Source: Dechloromonas denitrificans
GTDB lineage: Bacteria > Pseudomonadota > Gammaproteobacteria > Burkholderiales > Rhodocyclaceae
Assembly: GCF_020510685.1 (NCBI RefSeq)
Contig: NZ_CP075185.1
Coordinates: forward strand, 3,906,001-3,970,000
Direction of reading: 5' to 3'
DNA: 64,000 nt
Below, piece after piece: positions 14,830 to 48,414 of this stretch; within the stretch, counting starts at the first letter, position 1; every line of letters starts with the position of its first letter. A model generated the notes under the pieces. That model saw only the letters and a program-made list of their open reading frames with translations. It was not told where the DNA came from and searched no databases. The translations under genes and the position numbers were made by a program.

Positions 14830-14946
14830 GCCCGCAGCACGGCGCCGCAGGGCGCCGCCGGAACCCCGCCTGGCGCGTGTCTCGAGCGCGCCGTTTTGTT
14901 ACACTGGCGGATGGTTTCTACCACCAAAGTCATAGAGCAAAACATC

Positions 14947-15735
14947 ATGGTGCGCATCTTTCTGCTGCTTCTCGCGCTGCTGGCGGCCTCCCCGGCGGTT
15001 TTTGCCGAGGACAGCGCAGTCGATCGCATCAGCGCCAACAAGACGCTGCGCGTCTGCATCTGGCCGGACTATTTCGGCATCAGCTACCGCGACCCGAAAA
15101 CGCAGCAACTGTCCGGCATCGATATCGACATGGCCAAGGCGCTCGGCCGCGACCTCGGCGTGCGGGTCGAATTCATCGACAGCTCGTTCGCCCGGCTGAT
15201 CGCCGACCTTACCGAGGAGCGCTGCGACATCGCCATGTTCGCCATCGGCATCACCCCGCTGCGCGTCGAAAAGCTGCGCTTCACCAAGCCGCACCTGGCC
15301 AGCGACATCTACGCCATCACCACCCAGAGCAACCGCCGGATCAAGACCTGGAATGACATCGACAAGCCGGGCGCCGTAGTCGCCGTCGCCAAGGGCACGC
15401 TGCACGAACCGGTAATGGCCGGCAAGTTGAAATTCGCGACGCTCAAGGTCTTCGATACGCCGCATGCCCGCGAACAGGAAGTCGAATCCGGCCGGGCCGA
15501 CGTCTTCATGACCGACTTTCCTTATAGCCTGCGCATGCTGAAGACCACCGACTGGGCGCGACTGATCAAACCGGACAGCGCCTACCACATCACCCCCTAC
15601 GCCTACGCCATGCGCCCCGGCGACGACCGCTGGCACACCCGGGTCGAGCAGTTCGTCGCCGACGTCAAGCGCAGCGGCGAACTGAAGGCGGCAGCCGAAC
15701 GGCACGGCCTGCTGGCCATCGCCGTCCTCGACTGA
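14947..15735 (+). CDS. Periplasmic amino-acid-type solute-binding protein (SBP_bac_3)
   Basis: 262 residues from the ATG at 14947, chosen because it gives a clean signal peptide ([20 protein letters not shown], cleavage after AFA-type site near residue 22). In-frame starts at 14896 and 14911 would bury that signal. Family 3 blocks are visible: [44 protein letters not shown] and [15 protein letters not shown]. No ABC permease or ATPase follows; the next gene, 11 nt on, is a hybrid sensor kinase. This points to a sensory rather than transport role. The ligand is unknown. Confidence 0.88.
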
Positions 15736-15746
15736 GCGGGCTGAGC

Positions 15747-18700
15747 GTGGCCAACCCACCTTCCCAAGGGTTCACCAAGTTACTGGTCGGCCTGCAGATC
15801 CTGCTGGTCATTTCGGTGGCCGCCGGCACGCTGTCGAATATTTACCGGCTGCGCCAGGAAACCCTCGACCGGCATCTGAAGGAAGCCGAAACCCAGGCCC
15901 GCGTCTTCGAGGACCAACTGACCCAGACGCTGAATCTGGCCAGCCTGACTCTGCAAAGCCTGCCGCAGTCGATCGACCTGCCGGCCGGCGCGCCACCGGG
16001 CCGGGCCGTTGCCGAACACGCCACCAGCCAGCTCGAACTGATCCAGCGTCGGCTGCTCTTCCTGCGCTCGCTGTCGGTTGCCGATAGCGACGGGACGATC
16101 ATCGCCAGCTCGAATCCGGAGAATATCGGCCGGCGGGTGGCCGTCGACAATTTCCAGCCCCGGCCGGCAGGATCGGCGGCGGCCAATTTCCTGCGCCTCG
16201 GGGCGCCCTGGTCCGGGCGGGACTTCGCCGACGGCTCCCCGGCCACCCCGGCCCAACCGGTAGCGGCCGATGCCGCGAGCTTTGTCCCGGTCGTTCGCGA
16301 AGAACTCTCTGGCGATCGCCGTCTGAAATTGCTGGCCGCCCTCAACCCCGATTATTTTCTCAACCACTTCGCCCGCCATATCGATCCGGCAACCACCCAG
16401 ATCGAGATCGTCGCCTACGACGGAAGCCTCGTCGTGACGACGCGCGACGACCGGCCAGTCGGCGCCCGGCACCTCCCGGAGGCGACATTACAGCGCCTGC
16501 TCGGCGATGAAATCGGCAGTATCGCCGACGACCGCGAGGACCAGCCCGACCGGCCGATGCTGACCGCCTTCCGCAGCTCGCGCAGCTATCCGCTGCTGGT
16601 CATGGTCCATGTCGATCGCACCCTGGCGCTCGCCAAGTGGCAGGCCGAAACGCGGCAGACCGTGACCACGGTGGGTATCGTGCTGCTCGTCCTGCTGGCC
16701 CTGACCAGTCTGCTCATCAGCCGCGTCCGCAAAAGCCTGCGGGCCGAGGGGCGCATGCAGAAAGAACGGCAACTGGCTGCCCGGGTCTTCGAACACAGCA
16801 CCAACGGCGTCATCATCACCGATGCCGAGCGCCGGATCGTTGCCGTAAACCCGCACCTCGAGCAGGTCACCGGCTATACCAGCGGCGAGCTGATCGGCGA
16901 CGACCCGCGCCGCTTCGCGTCGGGCACCCATGAAGCCGCTTTCTACCAGGCGATGTGGAACGAATTGACGACCAACGGCGTGTGGCGCGGCGAGATCGTC
17001 AACCGGCGTAAGGATGGCACGCTGATCGACGAATGGCTGACCATCTCGGTGGTGCGCGACGAGGCCGGCAAGCTGCTCAACTACGTCGGCGTCTTCGAGG
17101 ACATCTCCGAGGAGCGCCGGCGCGACAGCCAGATCCGCCGCCTGTCGCAGGCCGTCGAACAGAGTCCGACGAGCATCGTCATCACCAATCTCGAACCGGC
17201 CATCGAGTACGTCAATCCGGAATTCTTCCGCACCACCGGCTATACGGCGGAGGAAGTCATCGGCCAGAATCCGCGCTTTCTGCAGTCCGGCCTGACCCCG
17301 CCAGCGAGCTATGCGGCGATGTGGAAGACGCTGAGCCACGGCGAGATCTGGGAGGGCGAATTCGTCAACAAGCGGCGGGACGCTTCGCTCTATTACGAAC
17401 GCGCCATCATCGCGCCGATCCGCGACGCCAACGAGCGGATCACCCATTACGTCGCGATCAAGCTCGACATCACCGAACAGCGCCTGCAAGGCATCCGCCT
17501 GCAACGCCAGCTCGACGCCTTGCGCGCCCTCAACGGCATCGTCGCCATCACCGGCCTCGACCCCCGCGAAACAATCCGCGCCGCGCTGCAGGTTGCCGTC
17601 AAGCACCTCCATCTCGAATACGCCATCGTCAGCCACATCGACCGGCCAGCCGGCGCCTACCGCATCGAAGTCCAGGTTTCGCCCGATCAGACCCTGGCCG
17701 ACAACCAACACCTCGAACTCGGCATCACCTATTGCAGCACGACCCTCGAGCACGGCGAGTTGCTGGCGATTGCCGACGCCGCGCATTCGACCTATCGGCT
17801 CCACCCCTGTTTCCGCGAATTCAACCTGGCGGCTTATCTCGGGGCGCCGATCTCGGTCAATGGCAAGGTTTACGGGACCATCTGCTTCTCCTCGGCCACC
17901 GCCCGCGAACACGACTTCGACCCCTCCGATCTCGAATTCGTCCGGATGCTGGCCAACTGGGCTGGCGCCTTCATCGAGCGCATGCTGGCCAACAACGAGC
18001 TGGAAGAAGCGCGCTCCGCCGCCGAAGCGGCCAGCCTGGCCAAGAGCAGCTTCCTGGCCAACATGAGCCATGAAATTCGCACTCCGATGAATGGCGTCAT
18101 CGGCATGGCCGACCTGCTGCTCGGCAGCCCGCTGACCGCCGAACAGCGCGATTTCGCCGAAACCATCCGGCACAGCGCCGACGGCCTGCTCGGGCTGATC
18201 AACGACATCCTCGACTTTTCCAAGGTCGAGGCCGGCAAGCTGCAGCTCGAAAGCATTCCTTTCGCGCCGGCCGCCCTGCTCCACGACATCCTGGCGCTGC
18301 TCGCCCACCAGGCCAATCTCAAGCAGATTTCGCTCGCCACCGAACTCGATCCGGCACTCCCCGGCCAACTGCTCGGCGACCCCGGCCGGCTGCGCCAGAT
18401 CCTGCTCAATCTGGTCGGCAATGCCATCAAGTTCACCCAGGCCGGCAGCGTTACCGTTCGCCTCGAGAGCCGGCCGATCGTCGGCCGCGACGACCAGATC
18501 CGGCTCTGCCTGACGATCCGCGACACCGGTATCGGCATGACCCCGGAAACCATCGCCAATCTCTTTTCACCGTTCGAGCAGGGCGACGCTTCGACGACCC
18601 GGATGTTCGGCGGCACCGGCCTCGGCCTGTCGATCTGCAAGCGCCTCGTCGAACTGATGGGCGGCACGATCAGCGTCGACGCGACCCCGGGGGCCGGCAG

Positions 18701-19169
18701 CACCTTCATCGTCGCCCTGCCCTTCAGCGTGCTCAACACCGGCCAAGCCGCGCCGGCCGCCGTCCCGCAAACTCTTGGCGAACTGCCGTCCGGGCTACGC
18801 ATCCTTCTGGTCGAGGACAATCTGATCAACCAGAAAGTGGCCGGGGCGCTGCTTGCCAAACTCGGCTGCCGGACGACCATCGCCGACGACGGCCACGCCG
18901 CGCTGGAGCAGTTGGCGACCGGCAGTTTCGATGTGGTGCTGATGGATTGCCAGATGCCGGTCATCGACGGCTTCGAGGCCACCCGCCGCGTGCGTCGCGG
19001 CGAAGCCGGAGCGGCGGCGGCCCGCTTGCCGATCATCGCGATGACCGCCAATGCCATGCAGGGCGACAAGGAGGAATGCCTGGCCGCCGGCATGAACGAC
19101 TATCTGGCCAAGCCGGTCAGCCGGGCCGAACTGATCGCCGCGCTGCAGCGCGCCAGCCAGCTGCGCTGA
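15747..19169 (+). CDS. Hybrid sensor histidine kinase (periplasmic sensor, 2 PAS, GAF, HisKA, HATPase, REC)
   Basis: 1140 residues, GTG start. Order: transmembrane helix (about 12-32), periplasmic sensor region resembling a double-Cache domain (33-305), second helix (306-327), PAS-PAC 1 (about 342-460; [18 protein letters not shown]), PAS-PAC 2 (about 467-590), GAF (about 600-745), HisKA with phosphorylated His775 ([17 protein letters not shown]), HATPase (about 885-1010; [18 protein letters not shown]) and a receiver domain with Asp1067 ([13 protein letters not shown]). It follows a solute-binding protein gene by 11 nt, so the pair may sense one ligand. No output regulator lies nearby; a histidine phosphotransfer partner must be elsewhere. 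Confidence 0.93.
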
Positions 19170-19170
19170 A

Positions 19171-20295
19171 TCAGGCGAGCATCGCTTCGCGGGCGACGCT
19201 TTCGAAACGTTCGACGACACTCGCCCAGTTGCGCGGCAGCATCGCGGCGCGGGCAGCGCTGGCCAGTTCTGGCAAGCGCTCGGCCCGTCCGGCCAGAGCG
19301 ATGGCCGCCGCGACATAGGCGGTTTCGTCGCCGGGCGCCGCGAGATGGCCATTGGCCCCGTCGCAGATCAATTCGGCTGCCGCCGCACTGCGGTAGGCGA
19401 GCACCGGCAGGCCGCTGGCCATCGCCTCGGCCACGACATTGCCGTAGGTTTCGCTGAGACTGGGGAAGAGGAAGAGATCGGCGCTGGCGTAGTGGGTCGC
19501 GAGGTCTTCAGCGAGCCGCGTGCCGGCGAAATGGTGATCGGCATGGCTGGCCCGCAGACGCGCCGCCGACGGTCCGTCGCCGACCCAGACCATGCGCGCC
19601 TCGGGGCAGGCGCTACGGATCGCGGCAAAGCTTTTCTCGATCAGCGCCAGGTTCTTTTCCGGCGCCATCCGCCCGACATAGAGGCAGGCCAGCCCGGCCT
19701 CGGGCACGCCCCAGCCGGCGCGCAACGCTGACGAACGACGGGCCGGGTCGAACAAGGCGGTATCGACGCCACGCCCGACCACTCGCACGCCGGTGATGCC
19801 TTCGCCGGCCAGATCGGCGGCCAGCGCGGCGGTCGGCACCATGGTGGCGCGCGTCCGCCGATGCAGCGTGCGCAGATAGGCGGCGACCGCCGGGCGCAGC
19901 CAGCCGAGGCCGTAATGCACACTGTAGCGGTCGAAATTGGTATGAAAGCCGGAGGTCACCGGTATGCCCAGCCGGCGCGCCGCGCTGACCGCCGACCAGC
20001 CGAGCGGGCCTTCGGTCACGACGTGCACGAGGTCCGGGCGGTGCTGCCGCCAGTGCCGGGCCAGTTGGCGACCGGCCGGCAGGCCGAAGCGCAGGCCGGG
20101 GTAGCCGGGCAAGGGCAGGCCGGGCAGCGCCAGTTCATGCGCCCCGCCGAGGTCGGCCTGGCCCTGGCGCGGCCGAACGACGCTGATCCGGTGGCCGCGC
20201 TCGCGCAGACCACCGACCAGGCGGCCGACGGTCATCGCGACACCATTGACCTCGGGCGGAAAGGTTTCGGTGACGAAGGCGATATCCAGACGCAT
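19171..20295 (-). CDS. GT4 glycosyltransferase (MgtA/SqdX-like)
   Basis: 374 residues from the ATG at 20295; the longer frame upstream is a shadow of dgkA. It is a GT-B enzyme with a Gly-rich N-terminal acceptor loop (TETFPPEVNGVAMTVGRL) and the GT4 donor site (VGRMAPEKNLALIE, then FPSLSETYGNVVAEAMA with the Glu-x7-Glu motif). Related GT4 proteins include MgtA-type mannosyltransferases and SqdX sulfoquinovosyl-diacylglycerol synthase, which act on lipid acceptors. Its start overlaps the dgkA stop (TGATG), so it is co-translated with a diacylglycerol kinase. This supports a diacylglycerol-linked acceptor. Sugar donor unknown. Confidence 0.87.
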   Translation of the reverse strand: MRLDIAFVTETFPPEVNGVAMTVGRLVGGLRERGHRISVVRPRQGQADLGGAHELALPGLPLPGYPGLRFGLPAGRQLARHWRQHRPDLVHVVTEGPLGWSAVSAARRLGIPVTSGFHTNFDRYSVHYGLGWLRPAVAAYLRTLHRRTRATMVPTAALAADLAGEGITGVRVVGRGVDTALFDPARRSSALRAGWGVPEAGLACLYVGRMAPEKNLALIEKSFAAIRSACPEARMVWVGDGPSAARLRASHADHHFAGTRLAEDLATHYASADLFLFPSLSETYGNVVAEAMASGLPVLAYRSAAAAELICDGANGHLAAPGDETAYVAAAIALAGRAERLPELASAARAAMLPRNWASVVERFESVAREAMLA

Positions 20296-20711
20296 CACGC
20301 CACCGCCAGCAGCACGCAGGTCCACACCGCGACCACCATCAGCAAGGAAACGAGCACCGCGGCACTGCCGATGTCCTTGGCCCGCTTGGCCAGCCGATGG
20401 TTTTCCAGGCTGACCCGGTCGACCACCGCTTCGATGGCCGAATTGAGCAATTCGACGACCAGCACCATCAGGACGCTGGCGATCATCAGGCCGCGCCCGA
20501 GCCACGGCACCGGCAGCAGCACAGCGGCCGGGATCAACAAGGCGGCCAGCCAGACTTCCTGGCGGAAGGCGTCCTCGCACAGATAGGCCGCCTTGAGGCC
20601 GGCCATCGAGTAGCTGAGAGCGTTCCAGACCCGGCGCAGACCGGTCTTGCCCTTGAAGGGCGATTCGTTGGCCGGGTCAAGACCCAGTTCGTGCGGGGAA
20701 GGTTCCGGCAT
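20295..20711 (-). CDS. dgkA: Diacylglycerol kinase, prokaryotic DgkA type (copy 1)
   Basis: 138 residues with three membrane helices. The family signature is EVWLAALLIPAAVL, then VELLNSAIEAVVDRVS (catalytic Glu) and KRAKDIGSAAVLVS. DgkA phosphorylates diacylglycerol to phosphatidic acid in the inner membrane; related enzymes phosphorylate undecaprenol. This copy has an extra N-terminal segment of about 20 residues compared with the second copy at 48043. It shares a promoter region containing a Pho box with the divergent porin gene and is translationally coupled to a GT4 gene. Confidence 0.94.
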   Translation of the reverse strand: MPEPSPHELGLDPANESPFKGKTGLRRVWNALSYSMAGLKAAYLCEDAFRQEVWLAALLIPAAVLLPVPWLGRGLMIASVLMVLVVELLNSAIEAVVDRVSLENHRLAKRAKDIGSAAVLVSLLMVVAVWTCVLLAVA

Positions 20712-20769
20712 AGCATCTCCGTGAAAGCAACCACGGTAATCGGGCCGCGCTAAGCTTTGATGACACCAA

Positions 20770-20787
20770 ATGTCACGAAACTGTCAC
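20770..20787 (+). promoter_or_regulatory. Pho box between dgkA and the porin gene
   Basis: ATGTCAC-GAAA-CTGTCAC: two 7-mers 4 nt apart, matching the PhoB consensus CTGTCAY-N4-CTGTMAY at 13 of 14 defined positions. It is oriented towards the porin gene. The overlapping palindrome TGACA-CCAAA-TGTCA (20761-20775) also offers a GTGTCAT half-site facing dgkA. A TATAAT at 20849-20854 is too far away to be the Pho-dependent -10. Confidence 0.65.
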
Positions 20788-20888
20788 AACCGCCAGTTAC
20801 CCTGCCGCACCCCATGGGATTCCGCGCCGCCCCGGCCGCCACGCCCTTTATAATTGCCGCCCTTGCCGCCCCCTGTCACCGTTTCCCC

Positions 20889-22202
20889 ATGCGCCTTCAT
20901 TCCACTCTCCTGCTCGGCATCGCAATCGCCACCCCCTGCCTGGCCGACGAGACGGAAGAAAACTGGCAGGCCAAGGGACAGGCCACCTATGTCTGGCAGA
21001 AATCGCCCGGCTTTCCGGCCGACTACTCCGGCCCGAACAGCCTGTCGGCCAAACACGAGCGGGGCTACACCTTCACCTCGACAGCCTATCTCGGGGTTCG
21101 GCCCTGGAAAAATGGCGAGCTCTATCTCAATGTCGAAGTCGGACAAGGCGACGCGCTGTCCGGCCTGACCGGTCTTGGCGGCTTCAGCAACGGCGAAGCG
21201 ACGCGGGTTTCCGGCAGCAAGCTGAAAGCCTACCGGCAGCGCCTGTTCCTGCGCCAGACCTGGGCCCTGGGCGATGAAACGGAGTTTGTCGAATCGGCCT
21301 TCAACCAGATGGCCGGCCACGTCGCTCAAGATCGCTTCGTGCTTACCGCCGGGAATTTCTCGGCCCTCGATATTTTCGACGGCAACGCCTACGCCAAGGA
21401 CCCGCGCACCCAGTTTCTGAACTGGAGCAACATGGCGCACACCGCATTCGACTACGCCGCCGACGCCCGCGGTTTCGGCTGGGGCCTGGCCGGCGAGTGG
21501 TATCAAGGCGACTGGGTGCTGCGCTTCGGCCGCATGACCGGCCCCAAGGAGCCGAACGGGCAGGTGGTCGACTACCGGATCATGCATCACTACGGCGATC
21601 AGATCGAAATCGAACACAGCCATCAGATCGCCGAGCGCCCCGGCAAGGTCAGACTGCTCGCCTTCCGCAACCGCGCCACCCTCGCCACCTACGCCGAGGC
21701 CAGCGCCTGGCTCGACAGCCATCCGGGCCAAGACCGGCAGGCCATCCTGAATGTCCGCAACGACGAGCAGATCAAGTATGGTTTCGGGATCAACATCGAG
21801 CAGGCGATCACCAATAACCTCGGGGTTTTTCTCCGGGCGATGCACGCCGACGGCCGGAGCGAAACCTACGCCTTCACCGAGGCCGATGCCTCGCTCGCCA
21901 CCGGGCTGGCACTGAAGGGCGGCGCCTGGGGCCGGGCCGATGACACCTTTGGCCTGGCCTGGATGCGCAACACGCTATCCAACGAGCGACGCAACTACCT
22001 GGCGCAGGGCGGTATCTCGTTCTTCATCGGCGACGGCGGGCTGAATTACCGTCCCGAATCCATCGTCGAAACCTATTACAGCTGGAAAGCGCTGCCCGGC
22101 CTGTGGCTGAGCGCCGACTACCAGCGCATTCAAAATCCGGCTTACAACGCCGACCGCGGCCCCGCCCACATCGGCTCGCTGCGCATGCACGCCGAGTTCT
22201 GA
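20889..22202 (+). CDS. OprB-type carbohydrate-selective porin
   Basis: 437 residues from the ATG at 20889, which gives a signal peptide (LHSTLLLGIAIATPCLADE); in-frame starts upstream would mask it. Family features are YSGPNSLSAKHERGYTFT, LFLRQTW, LTAGNFSALDIFDGNAYA and DPRTQFLNWS, the recognisable OprB pattern, with alternating beta strands to the end and a terminal Phe (LRMHAEF) as in outer-membrane barrels. OprB porins pass sugars. Its place directly behind a Pho box makes it a candidate phosphate-starvation porin, perhaps for sugar phosphates; this is inference. Confidence 0.88.
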   Translation: MRLHSTLLLGIAIATPCLADETEENWQAKGQATYVWQKSPGFPADYSGPNSLSAKHERGYTFTSTAYLGVRPWKNGELYLNVEVGQGDALSGLTGLGGFSNGEATRVSGSKLKAYRQRLFLRQTWALGDETEFVESAFNQMAGHVAQDRFVLTAGNFSALDIFDGNAYAKDPRTQFLNWSNMAHTAFDYAADARGFGWGLAGEWYQGDWVLRFGRMTGPKEPNGQVVDYRIMHHYGDQIEIEHSHQIAERPGKVRLLAFRNRATLATYAEASAWLDSHPGQDRQAILNVRNDEQIKYGFGINIEQAITNNLGVFLRAMHADGRSETYAFTEADASLATGLALKGGAWGRADDTFGLAWMRNTLSNERRNYLAQGGISFFIGDGGLNYRPESIVETYYSWKALPGLWLSADYQRIQNPAYNADRGPAHIGSLRMHAEF

Positions 22203-22259
22203 GCGCCCGGCGGGGGCGCCCGCCAGGCGAATCTCTGCGGCAGATCAAACATCGTGCAG

Positions 22260-22277
22260 TTGTAACAGTACTGAAAC
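22260..22277 (+). promoter_or_regulatory. Pho-box-like direct repeat before the cNMP-binding gene
   Basis: TTGTAAC-AGTA-CTGAAAC has the 7+4+7 layout of a Pho box and fits the degenerate consensus at all but about 3 positions. A possible -10 (TATGCT, 22295-22300) lies 17 nt further on. It is weaker than the sites at 20770 and 24924. Confidence 0.4.
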
Positions 22278-22336
22278 ATAGAGCACACCCGGCCTATGCT
22301 AATAGTGCTATTCCAAATTTTCCGGACACCACAATC

Positions 22337-22711
22337 ATGGTTTTTTTCGAGCTCTTCGCCAACAACCCGTCGATTATCAGCGTGCCAGCCGGCCAGCCGC
22401 TATTCACCGCCGGCGAGGAAGGTCACCTGATGTTCGTGCTGACCACCGGCAGCGCCGAAGTCATCGTCAATGGCCGGGTGGTCGAAACCTTGAAACACGG
22501 CAGTATCGTCGGCGAACTGGGCATCGTTCTGGCCGGCCCGCGCTCGGCCAGCGTCATCGCCAAGACCAATTGCGAATTTGTCGCGATCGACGAAAAACGC
22601 TTCCAGTTCCTGGTCCAGCAGACGCCCTACTTCGCCACCCAGGTCATGCGCGTGATGGCCGAGCGGCTACGGGCGTTGAATCAGATGGTCGCGCCGGCTG
22701 AGGCGACCTGA
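22337..22711 (+). CDS. Stand-alone cyclic-nucleotide-binding domain protein
   Basis: 124 residues from the ATG at 22337; the long in-frame upstream extension overlaps the porin gene and is rejected. The protein is a single cNMP-binding beta-barrel: GQPLFTAGEEGHLMFVLTTG, then HGSIVGELGIVLAGPRSASV, where GELGIVLAGPRSA is the phosphate-binding cassette with its Glu and Arg. There is no DNA-binding helix-turn-helix, unlike Crp, and no catalytic domain. It probably acts through a partner. It is monocistronic, with a Pho-box-like repeat upstream, and its 3' end overlaps the convergent small Cys protein gene by 31 nt. Confidence 0.85.
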   Translation: MVFFELFANNPSIISVPAGQPLFTAGEEGHLMFVLTTGSAEVIVNGRVVETLKHGSIVGELGIVLAGPRSASVIAKTNCEFVAIDEKRFQFLVQQTPYFATQVMRVMAERLRALNQMVAPAEAT

Positions 22712-22902
22712 TCCGGCCTGGCCGGCAGAAATTCGCCGCACCAGGCATGGATGTTCACCGCCGGGAAGCGCCAGTGATGCGTTTCGCGCGATGAGCTTTC
22801 GCCGGTAAAAACCGGCGGAAAACGATGGCAGGCGCCATTGCTGGCGTCGGCGGCGCGGAAATAGTGGCACTGGGCGCAATGCGGCGTGAATTGTTCAGTC
22901 AT
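22681..22902 (-). CDS. Small four-cysteine protein (putative zinc-binding)
   Basis: 73 residues starting at 22902. Cysteines at 9, 12, 25 and 55 (HCAQCHYF, GACHRFPP, HAWCGEF) suggest a small metal site. The Cys-x2-Cys, Cys-x-x-Phe-Pro-Pro and Trp-Cys-Gly-Glu pattern recurs in small proteobacterial proteins of unknown role that I have seen annotated only as hypothetical. It follows the GT4 gene by 20 nt on the same strand and may be the last gene of the plcP operon. No function is proposed. Confidence 0.65.
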   Translation of the reverse strand: MTEQFTPHCAQCHYFRAADASNGACHRFPPVFTGESSSRETHHWRFPAVNIHAWCGEFLPARPDQVASAGATI

Positions 22903-22922
22903 GTGATTGGCCTGGGCTGCGC

Positions 22923-24104
22923 TCAGGCGGCTGCGGGAGAAGGCCTTTCCGACGCAATTTTCAAGCCTGCCAGTTCGCGATAGAGCCAGGCCAGGCGGGC
23001 CGCCATCGCCGCATCCGACCATTCGCCGGCAAAGACCGGCGCTTCGTCGGCCAGATGGCGCCAGGCCGAGGGCCGGTTGAGAAAGTCGCCGAGCGCCGTG
23101 CCGAAGGCCTGCGGCTCGGCCGGCGGGGATATTGCACCACGGCCGGGCGCCAGAATGTCGGTCGTCCCCATTTCGGAAAGGGCAATGACCGGCAGACCGG
23201 CTGCCATCGCTTCGAGCAGCACCAGGCCTTGCGTTTCGGTGCGCGAGGCGAAGACGAAGGCATCGGCAGCGGCATAACAATCCGGCAGTTCCTGCCGGCG
23301 GTCGAGATAGCCGATGAACTGCACCGCTTCGCGCAGGCCCAGCGTCTTGACCTGGGCTTTCAGGTCGGCCATGGCCGGACCTTCGCCGGCCACGACGAGC
23401 AGGATGTCCGGTCGCAGCCGCCGGGCATGGACCAGCGCTTCGAGCAGGAAGCCGATGTTCTTTTCATGCGCCACCCGGCCGACGAACAGGGCCACCGGCC
23501 GCGTCGACAGGATGCCGTGGCGGTAACGGAAGGCGGCGCCGTCGCCGCTGGCGAACTGCGCCGTCGGAATGCCGGTCGGCAGCACGTGCAGCGGTACGCT
23601 GACTTCGTAGGTGGCGAGGCGCTGCTGCATCGCGCTGGACGGCACGATCACCGCATCGAGCGCATTGCACTGACGGCGGGAAAAGGCTCGCGCCTGGGCC
23701 TGCAGCCAGCCGGCCGGCAGGAACGGCGCGTAATACTCGAGATAGGCCTCGAACAGCGTGTGATAGGTGGCGACGACCGGCAAGCCCAGGGTGCGCGCCG
23801 CCTTCAGGCCGGCATAGTGGGCGATGAAGGGGGTCTGGATGTGGATCAGGTCGCAGTCCCGGGCCGCTTCCAGCACGGCACGATGCATCGCCCGCCAGCC
23901 GACCATGCGGTCTTCGCGGTCGCCCGGCACCGGCCGGCCGGCGACGCGGATCACCCCGGCCTCGTCGGCTTCGTCGCCGTAGCGCGGGACAACCAGGCGG
24001 ACATCGACGCCCTGCTCGCGCAGCGTACGGCGAAAGGTTTCAATCGAGGTCGATACGCCATTGACCCGGGGAAAATAGACGTCCGATACCATCAGGACAC
24101 GCAT
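22923..24104 (-). CDS. GT4 glycosyltransferase, Agt-like glycolipid synthase candidate
   Basis: 393 residues. The N-terminus MVSDVYFPRVNGVSTSIETF is typical of GT4 enzymes that glycosylate diacylglycerol (monoglucosyl-DAG synthase type). The donor site is visible as VGRVAHEKNIGFLLEAL and FASRTETQGLVLLEAMA (Glu-x7-Glu). The ATG follows the plcP stop directly (TGAATG), so the two are co-translated. In several marine and rhizobial bacteria a plcP-agt pair swaps phospholipids for glycolipids under phosphate starvation: PlcP releases diacylglycerol and Agt glycosylates it. Sequence and arrangement fit that role, but activity is inference. Confidence 0.85.
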   Translation of the reverse strand: MRVLMVSDVYFPRVNGVSTSIETFRRTLREQGVDVRLVVPRYGDEADEAGVIRVAGRPVPGDREDRMVGWRAMHRAVLEAARDCDLIHIQTPFIAHYAGLKAARTLGLPVVATYHTLFEAYLEYYAPFLPAGWLQAQARAFSRRQCNALDAVIVPSSAMQQRLATYEVSVPLHVLPTGIPTAQFASGDGAAFRYRHGILSTRPVALFVGRVAHEKNIGFLLEALVHARRLRPDILLVVAGEGPAMADLKAQVKTLGLREAVQFIGYLDRRQELPDCYAAADAFVFASRTETQGLVLLEAMAAGLPVIALSEMGTTDILAPGRGAISPPAEPQAFGTALGDFLNRPSAWRHLADEAPVFAGEWSDAAMAARLAWLYRELAGLKIASERPSPAAA

Positions 24105-24890
24105 TCAGGCCTCCGCATGTTGGACCGCTGCGGCAGCCAGGGTCGGGACGACGCTGCGCATGCCCCAGGCGACCAGTTCGAGACGGCCGTCGAAGTGTTC
24201 GACGATCGCCGTGCAGGAATCGACCCAGTCGCCGCAATTGACGTAACTGAGGCCGTCGATTTCGCGGATCGTCGCCCAGTGGATATGGCCGCAGATCACC
24301 CCGTCCAGGCCGCGTTCGCGGGCGTGGTGGATGGCCGAGTCCTCGAAATCGAAAATGAAATTGAGGGCTTTCTTGACCTTGCGCTTGGCAAAGCCGGCCA
24401 GCGACCAGTAGCCAGCGATGCCGAGCTTGCGCCGGCCCCAGGAGAGCAGCAGATTGAGCCGGACCAGCAGGTCGTAGGCCTTGTCGCCAAGGACCGCCAC
24501 CCAGCGGTGGTGGCGCGTCACCTGATCGAAGACGTCGCCGTGGATGAGCAGGAAGCGCCGGCCGTCGGCCGTTTCGTGCACCAGCTCGTCGACCACCTCG
24601 ACATCGCCGAAGACGATGCCGCAATAGTCGCGCAGCGCCTCGTCGTGGTTGCCGGGGATAAACACCACCTTGTCGCCGTGGCGGGCCCGGCGCAGCAGTT
24701 TCTGGACCACGGTGTTCTGGGCCTGCGACCAGTGGATGCTGCGGCTCATCGCCCAGAAGTCGATGATGTCGCCGATCAGGTAAGTCTGATCGGCCGGATA
24801 TTCACGCAGAAAATCGAGAAGACGGTCCGCCTGGCACGCCCGCGTGCCGAGGTGGATGTCGGACAAGAAAACTGATCTGACCTTGGGCAT
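24105..24890 (-). CDS. Metallophosphoesterase of the PlcP/LpxH family
   Basis: 261 residues with the calcineurin-like metal motifs in order: FLSDIHLGT, LIGDIIDFW, IPGNHDEAL, LIHGDVFD and ICGHIHWA. The block TRACQADRLLDFLREYP and the WSQAQNTVVQKLLRRAR region match the PlcP phospholipase-C-like branch (as in Sinorhizobium) rather than E. coli LpxH, which is shorter. PlcP cleaves phosphatidylcholine/-glycerol head groups to leave diacylglycerol. A triple Pho-box repeat sits directly upstream, and an Agt-like GT4 gene follows without a gap. LpxH function in lipid A synthesis remains an alternative. Confidence 0.85.
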   Translation of the reverse strand: MPKVRSVFLSDIHLGTRACQADRLLDFLREYPADQTYLIGDIIDFWAMSRSIHWSQAQNTVVQKLLRRARHGDKVVFIPGNHDEALRDYCGIVFGDVEVVDELVHETADGRRFLLIHGDVFDQVTRHHRWVAVLGDKAYDLLVRLNLLLSWGRRKLGIAGYWSLAGFAKRKVKKALNFIFDFEDSAIHHARERGLDGVICGHIHWATIREIDGLSYVNCGDWVDSCTAIVEHFDGRLELVAWGMRSVVPTLAAAAVQHAEA

Positions 24891-24923
24891 GGCACGACGA
24901 TAAGCACCGCCAATGAAAGGCTG

Positions 24924-24952
24924 GTGACAGCCAGATGACCGAACGATGACAG
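24924..24952 (-). promoter_or_regulatory. Triple Pho-box repeat upstream of plcP
   Basis: Read on the minus strand: CTGTCAT-CGTT-CGGTCAT-CTGG-CTGTCAC, three 7-mers at an exact 11-bp pitch, each close to the PhoB consensus CTGTCAY. This is the best Pho site in the window. It ends 33 nt before the plcP ATG. A weak -10-like element (TGCTTA, 24901-24906) lies 17 nt beyond it. Confidence 0.75.
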
Positions 24953-45154: not shown

Positions 45155-45220
45155 TCTTCCGTGCATCCGGCTACAGTTTTGCGTATAGTTCCCCTTCCCC
45201 CAACCGAGAATAGAACAGCG

Positions 45221-48042
<2,822 letters not shown>

Positions 48043-48046
<4 letters not shown>

Positions 48047-48414
48047 GCGCCGCCGAATTCAAGGGCAAGAAAGGCCTGACCCGCCTGTGGAATGCCCTCG
48101 GCTATTCCCGTGACGGCATTGTCGCCGCCTGGCAGAACGAAGCGGCCTTCCGCGAGGAAATCCTGCTCGCTGTGGTGACCATCCCGCTGGCGATCTATCT
48201 CGGCCACAGCGGCATTGAACGCGCCTTGCTGATCGGCAGCATCATCCTGATCCTGATCGTCGAAATCCTCAATTCGGCCGTCGAAGCGGTGGTCGACAAG
48301 GCCTCGCCGGAGAAGAACGAACTGGCCAAGCGGGCCAAGGACATGGGCAGCGCCGCAGTGCTCTTCAGCCTGCTCAATGCGGCCACCGTCTGGGCCTGCG
48401 TTCTCTGGCCCTGA
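48043..48414 (+). CDS. dgkA: Diacylglycerol kinase, prokaryotic DgkA type (copy 2)
   Basis: 123 residues, three membrane helices. Signature [19 protein letters not shown] with the catalytic Glu, then [16 protein letters not shown]. It starts inside the uvrA stop (ATGA), so it is translated from the uvrA transcript and may be SOS-inducible through read-through. Its standard role is recycling diacylglycerol to phosphatidic acid. It shares the [17 protein letters not shown] opening with the copy at 20295, so the two arose by duplication or from a common source; this one is the more typical housekeeping form. Confidence 0.95.

Follow-up and report, generated by a model that had tools for sequence, protein, structure and literature searches.

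Membrane lipid remodelling by the phosphoesterase PlcP and glycosyltransferases of the Agt kind has been published for marine bacteria, rhizobia, Pseudomonas aeruginosa and Methylosinus (PMC4796936, PMC8528852, PMC9239053). We analyzed a candidate cluster of this kind in a stretch of 64,000 nucleotides from the freshwater bacterium Dechloromonas denitrificans (contig NZ_CP075185.1), which we call the window and which belongs to a host genome of 4.62 Mb. The cluster combines plcP with two genes for glycosyltransferases of family 4 (GT4), gt4A and gt4B, and a diacylglycerol kinase gene, dgkA. It probably serves Pho-controlled membrane lipid remodelling of the PlcP/Agt kind in a variant architecture, as judged from the sequence comparisons described below. 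While the pathway is known, its recurrent link to DgkA and a third clade of PlcP-associated transferases are new.

In P. aeruginosa, as in the window, PlcP is accompanied by two GT4 transferases and by Pho boxes (PMC8528852). Agt1 makes monoglucosyl-diacylglycerol (MGDG) from UDP-glucose and Agt2 makes glucuronosyl-diacylglycerol (GADG) from UDP-glucuronic acid (UDP-GlcA). GADG synthesis by Agt2 was proven in E. coli expressing the enzyme, in an enzyme assay and with a mutant; purified Agt2 accepts UDP-glucose too, to some extent. Unlike in P. aeruginosa, both transferases and dgkA lie in one cluster in D. denitrificans, and the transferase coupled to plcP belongs to a third clade and not to that of Agt1. 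Operons of plcP and agt occur in marine bacteria and rhizobia (PMC4796936) and in Methylosinus trichosporium OB3b (PMC9239053); there, too, plcP stands beside a GT4 gene, the products are MGDG and GADG, and the marine clusters carry a Pho box. These operons are described with one Agt by plcP, whereas the window has two GT4 genes. The MGDG synthase of OB3b was left unidentified, and another putative diacylglycerol (DAG) glycosyltransferase was described in some type Ia methanotrophs (PMC9239053). None of the three papers names a diacylglycerol kinase in its main text. A precedent for co-induction comes from the low-phosphate proteome of Pseudomonas putida BIRD-1, in which PlcP and a diacylglycerol kinase (DagK) were both enriched (PMC5082522); the passages concerned describe no linkage of the two genes and give no type for the kinase, whereas in the window dgkA is part of the cluster.

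The plcP-agt-dgkA cassette was not found in the literature searched, which covered few subscription papers, and the literature found on phosphate-starvation lipid remodelling named neither Dechloromonas nor Accumulibacter. The one paper found to mention both plcP and dgkA has dgkA as an entry in a gene list. An earlier, sequence-only reading of the window had called the cluster undescribed. As far as we searched this holds only for the architecture, since PlcP with two Agts (PMC8528852) and a DagK rising together with PlcP (PMC5082522) have been reported.

The genes of the cluster, in window coordinates, are:

24105-24890, minus strand: plcP, Metallophos family (Pfam); predicted phospholipase C-type phosphoesterase that would convert phospholipid to DAG
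22923-24104, minus strand: gt4A, GT4 (Pfam); coupled to plcP, third clade
22681-22902, minus strand: cys73, a cysteine-rich open reading frame (ORF) of 73 aa, convergent with the following gene and absent from the gene list of the sequence-only reading
22337-22711, plus strand: cnmp, accessory; single-domain protein of 124 aa binding cyclic nucleotide monophosphates (cNMP; PF00027, 62 bits)
20889-22202, plus strand: oprB, accessory; OprB-type porin (PF04966, 117 bits)
20295-20711, minus strand: dgkA, cluster-type diacylglycerol kinase (PF01219, DAGK_prokar)
19171-20295, minus strand: gt4B, GT4 of the Agt2 clade; predicted GADG synthase

All genes named by the sequence-only reading were recovered at the positions it had given, and their families were confirmed with Pfam. 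Both couplings it had pointed out are present as well: the stop codon of plcP directly abuts the start codon of gt4A without a gap (TGAATG), and the stop codon of dgkA overlaps gt4B by one base (TGATG). The two minus-strand pairs, plcP-gt4A and dgkA-gt4B, flank the plus-strand genes oprB and cnmp, with cys73 following gt4A.

Conservation of the cassette in relatives

We confirmed 271 PlcP relatives in one scan and analyzed the best 80 loci of these 271. They were split at 83% PlcP identity, and thus by identity and not by taxonomy, into 44 close and 36 more distant loci. Neighbors were counted within 6 kb of plcP at an identity of at least 44%, with some contigs ending early. The named genomes with the best matching PlcP are labelled Dechloromonas, Azonexus and unclassified Rhodocyclales. 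In the close loci gt4A is located directly downstream of plcP in 43/44 cases, and an adjacent dgkA-gt4B pair is found downstream of plcP-gt4A in 30/44. Among the more distant loci gt4A is present in 32/36, the pair in 10/36 and a gt4B on the opposite strand in 5/36. The ten distant loci with the pair include Rhodocyclus, Accumulibacter, Niveibacterium and Oryzomicrobium (L182, L200, L184, L173, L179).

The sequence-only reading had counted the porin and the cNMP protein as members of the cluster. They accompany plcP in 10/44 and 29/44 close loci, respectively, but were found within 6 kb in none of the 36 loci with a PlcP below 83% identity, and look like lineage extras. In five relatives examined (L126, L129, L134, L139, L145) the porin's place beside dgkA is taken by a different ORF of 230–247 aa, possibly an outer-membrane protein. 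No PDB entry matched the porin at E 0.1. No family was found for cys73 in Pfam or NCBIfam; its homologues adjoin gt4A in many Dechloromonas- and Azonexus-like loci.

PlcP and the two glycosyltransferases

As reference for Agt2 (PA0842) we used the P. aeruginosa transferase encoded right after plcR (L358), which we take to be PA0843, the neighboring locus. The plcP-coupled transferase of P. aeruginosa (L354, upstream of a gene for adenylate cyclase) was taken as Agt1 (PA3218), because Agt1 has been placed directly downstream of PlcP (PMC8528852). Over an alignment of 373 aa gt4B is 49.6% identical to Agt2, compared to an identity of 34% with Agt1; gt4A reaches 30–31% with both. A GT4 tree was built from 125 of 151 rows, with every second Agt1-like row left out. 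It consists of three groups, Agt2-like (63 rows, support 97), gt4A-like (36 rows, support 100) and Agt1-like (26 rows, support 99), each of which lies on one side of a branch. gt4B is located inside the Agt2 group, and gt4A in a group of its own. At columns such as those of N286 and W195, the gt4B residue is found in 94–95% of the Agt2-like rows, among them P. aeruginosa Agt2, and in less than 20% of the rows in the other two groups. The description of the plcP-coupled transferase as Agt-like, given in the sequence-only reading, therefore had to be corrected: gt4A falls outside the Agt1 clade (support 97–100) and is, by sequence, a third plcP-associated clade apart from Agt1 and Agt2.

Since gt4B groups with a proven GADG synthase, it most likely makes GADG from UDP-GlcA and DAG, in agreement with the charged glycolipid that had been suggested from the sequence. 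The genome encodes three nucleoside diphosphate (NDP)-sugar dehydrogenases scoring over the cut-off, which could supply UDP-GlcA. A hexosyl-DAG as product of gt4A is a guess. The best NCBIfam models of gt4A are glucosaminyl-phosphatidylglycerol (GlcN-PG) synthase with 136 bits and alpha-monoglucosyl-DAG synthase with 128 bits, both far under their cut-offs. PDB searches with gt4A and gt4B matched only other glycosyltransferases, whose fold we take to be of the GT-B type, a fold that does not reveal which sugar is used. In a protein search with gt4B the named sequences among the best 120 of 8000 scored were mostly from Dechloromonas or unclassified bacteria and were uninformative on function.

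The phosphoesterase could also be read as the lipid A enzyme LpxH, with a cluster serving lipopolysaccharide instead of phosphate saving. Public records indeed call such proteins UDP-2,3-diacylglucosamine diphosphatase, and the plcP product reaches 43 bits on the LpxH model. This score is, however, far under the cut-off of 190, a separate true LpxH elsewhere in the same genome reaches 234 bits, and the plcP-coupled protein of P. aeruginosa matches the plcP product with 54% identity across 91% of the query, all of which makes an LpxH function extremely improbable. We conclude from this homology that the phosphoesterase is a PlcP, as had been proposed, and distinct from LpxH, with hydrolysis of phospholipid to DAG as its predicted activity. 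Two GT4 genes in one cluster might further mean that a lipid is glycosylated first by one transferase and then by the other to give a diglycosyl-DAG, the disaccharide considered in the sequence-only reading. The NCBIfam model for a processive DAG glucosyltransferase touches both proteins weakly (38 and 21 bits; cut-off 500), and gt4A could still act second. Because gt4B groups with Agt2, the maker of the monoglycosyl lipid GADG (PMC8528852), the disaccharide idea is left without support and we consider it unlikely.

A third possibility is a functional separation of dgkA-gt4B from plcP-gt4A, with DgkA acting as a general DAG kinase and gt4B glycosylating another acceptor, for example phosphatidylglycerol. 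Among the NCBIfam models gt4B scores best on GlcN-PG synthase (154 bits, under the cut-off of 480), and some fetched stretches (L334, L335, L336) contain a dgkA-gt4B pair without a plcP. On the other hand, this model is also the best one for P. aeruginosa Agt2 (135 bits), a GADG synthase acting on DAG. In several genera the pair lies downstream of plcP-gt4A, and the genome has another dgkA. We therefore regard two independent pairs as quite doubtful.

For remodelling based on PlcP-derived DAG, the reading we prefer, we infer the following scheme of enzyme activities, sugars and DAG flow. Under phosphate limitation PlcP would cleave off phospholipid head groups, leaving DAG in the membrane. gt4B would transfer glucuronic acid onto DAG, resulting in the anionic glycolipid GADG, and gt4A would add another sugar, perhaps a neutral hexose, resulting in a second monoglycosyl-DAG. 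DgkA, one of two copies in the genome, would convert surplus DAG to phosphatidic acid, returning acyl chains to essential phospholipids and keeping free DAG low. This step is the least certain one, because DgkA competes with the transferases. The formation of glycolipids from PlcP-derived DAG, already suggested by the sequence-only reading, is supported.

Three side observations concern these proteins. The public annotation of PlcP homologues as UDP-2,3-diacylglucosamine diphosphatase (H3–H8, H12 and others) hides the pathway. A plasmid of Candidatus Thiodictyon syntrophicum (L357 4610-6783) carries a transferase of the gt4A clade with 53% identity, divergent from plcP. In another genome (G021, L066 5146-6253) the gt4B homologue is split into two pieces in different frames, an apparent frameshift.

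Pho boxes and probable phosphate control

We searched for the Pho-box pattern TGTCAYN5TGTCAY, scored out of 12 with a repeat spacing of 11. The sites in the cluster, listed together with one conserved block, are:

24913-24951, minus strand: three overlapping matches with one mismatch each, in an 11-bp register upstream of plcP; sites of relatives lie at the same distances
20771-20787, plus strand: perfect match between dgkA and oprB, pointing towards oprB
20750-20765, minus strand: conserved block next to dgkA, in relatives mostly CTGTCATCAAAGCTTAG (compared in the upstream regions of 17 relatives and of the window)
22261-22277, plus strand: weak Pho-box-like repeat with three mismatches, upstream of cnmp

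The window contains eight matches with at most two mismatches, four of them being the plcP trio and the dgkA/oprB site, where 8.26 are expected by chance. As the count in the window is at the level of chance and by itself proves nothing, we turned to the regions upstream of the genes in relatives and to control spacings; the evidence for the Pho boxes is their conservation in these relatives. At spacing 11, a score of at least 10/12 is reached upstream of plcP in 40/78 relatives, in contrast to 1.35 in dinucleotide shuffles and to 5, 4, 2 and 5 at spacings of 9, 10, 12 and 13. The same threshold and spacing gave 7/8 upstream of oprB and 15/29 upstream of cnmp, with 0–3 at other spacings. Controls at spacing 11 gave 1/76 for gt4A, 0/21 for cys73 and, for purT, which in the window lies on the other side of the plcP intergenic region, 0/25 forward and 4/25 reversed. 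Pho control, as expected from the sequence-only reading, is therefore likely, and we infer a dependence on PhoB. Of the boxes which that reading had placed before three units, those of plcP and of the dgkA/oprB region are firm, whereas that of cnmp is weak in this genome.

Upstream of dgkA, spacing-11 repeats in reversed orientation, towards the divergent gene, were found in 22/31 relatives, and forward matches in 13/31 at spacing 10 and in 9/31 at spacing 12. A control of dgkA-gt4B by the shared dgkA/oprB region would thus be plausible. Upstream of gt4B sites were detected in 10/75 cases (shuffles 1.1; 7 at spacing 12), all ten in loci in which no dgkA was found. Elsewhere in the genome, which has two PhoB-family matches over the cut-off, sites of 11/12 precede the PstS-like gene and, in reverse orientation, one of the three NDP-sugar dehydrogenase genes. 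The pattern occurs at 130 sites genome-wide compared to 50 for a reversed control, too many to name a regulon.

Some results speak against the preferred reading. A forward box of spacing 11 precedes dgkA in 0/31 relatives. Sites of 11/12 on either strand are present in 15/105 plcP upstream regions across the class, with 1–4 at other spacings. No site was found upstream of the other two NDP-sugar dehydrogenase genes or of the two PhoB-family genes.

A weak PstS-family match is located on the plcP contig, at a distance of about 7 to 22 kb, in 10/18 other genomes of the same genus (G002, G005, G008, G010, G011, G012, G014, G015, G016, G018). In the host genome (G000) a PstS-family match lies about 71 kb from plcP and about 4 kb from a PhoB-family gene.

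DgkA in the neighborhood of PlcP

The host genome contains two dgkA genes, the copy in the cluster and one elsewhere in the window:

48043-48414 (start inferred), plus strand: second dgkA, directly after a uvrA-like ORF (45161-48046; uvrA named by eye)

The cluster DgkA aligns to solved DgkA structures with 97 bits through its conserved second half. Its family match and a conserved putative catalytic region, with residues that we take to be the catalytic ones, identify it as a predicted member of DgkA. In a tree of 98 DgkA rows, which has few columns and weak inner forks, the two proteins of the window fall into different groups: the second copy with 24 rows (support 87), the cluster copies with 55 rows (support 98). 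The genus thus has two types of dgkA. A gt4B of at least 50% identity is present in 33/60 genomes, and dgkA adjoins it in 23 of these 33 (by eye).

We also determined the distance between plcP and dgkA in an even sample of the class. This sample comprises 370 genomes, 106 of which, including the host genome, have a PlcP at E 1e-40 or better. Leaving the host out, 106 loci from 105 genomes were examined, 17 in stretches fetched for the transferases and 89 in stretches fetched for plcP. In 19/106 loci, which belong to 10 of about 62 family labels (by eye), dgkA is located within 6 kb of plcP, either divergent, co-directional upstream or downstream of gt4A. About 277 dgkA matches were counted in the 370 genomes of about 3 Mb (by eye), so that the chance rate is near 0.3% per stretch. 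The binomial tail for 19/106 is 9e-26 at a rate of 0.4% and 5e-17 at 1.2%, values that are guides only, because the loci are related. A further dgkA is present in 12 of the 19 genomes. Within 6 kb of Agt2-clade genes dgkA was found in 6/47 loci, or in 3/43 without L334–L337, which were picked after the dgkA results had been seen. A gene of the gt4A type is the best transferase label within 6 kb of plcP in 16/106 of the class loci, with an Agt1-labelled gene alongside in 7 of the 16.

Several points on DgkA weigh against the preferred reading as well. The kinase consumes the acceptor of both transferases, and its role is not obvious. The class loci are not independent of each other, and the match in L440, counted among the 19, is weak (74 bits). 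In 7/19 genomes the dgkA near plcP is the only dgkA match and therefore need not be dedicated there, and 16/19 of these DgkAs group outside the cluster type. dgkA is not next to gt4B in 10/33 genomes with gt4B (by eye); five of these ten were placed in the tree (G001, G009, G011, G018, G019), each with a single dgkA that belongs to the second type. The neighborhood of PlcP and dgkA recurs, while the evidence for a dedicated second copy is limited to the genus of the host.

We tentatively propose, as a possibility short of an expectation, that DgkA is a regular and so far unrecognized partner of PlcP in the lipid remodelling of gammaproteobacteria. Encoded nearby, it would meter PlcP-derived DAG between glycolipids and phospholipid resynthesis and, in Dechloromonas and its relatives, would have become a second gene dedicated to this task. 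The same proposal would make the gt4A clade a third class of PlcP-associated DAG glycosyltransferase and a candidate for the glycolipid activities to which published work on P. aeruginosa and Methylosinus assigns no enzyme. The proximity of the two genes raises the question why a kinase consuming the glycolipid precursor is kept beside PlcP. With the cluster, phosphate-sparing lipid remodelling would extend to the Rhodocyclales, together with a specific prediction of GADG. This order includes polyphosphate-accumulating wastewater bacteria such as Accumulibacter.

On a plasmid of Mitsuaria sp. 7 (L355 5914-10697) plcP is followed by the polyphosphate kinase gene ppk1, with a Ppx/GppA phosphatase gene on the other strand. 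Next to the cluster, at 14896-19169 on the plus strand of the window, the genes for a family-3 solute-binding protein and a large hybrid sensor kinase (PAS, GAF, HisKA, receiver) end beside gt4B, and homologues of both adjoin gt4B in some relatives.

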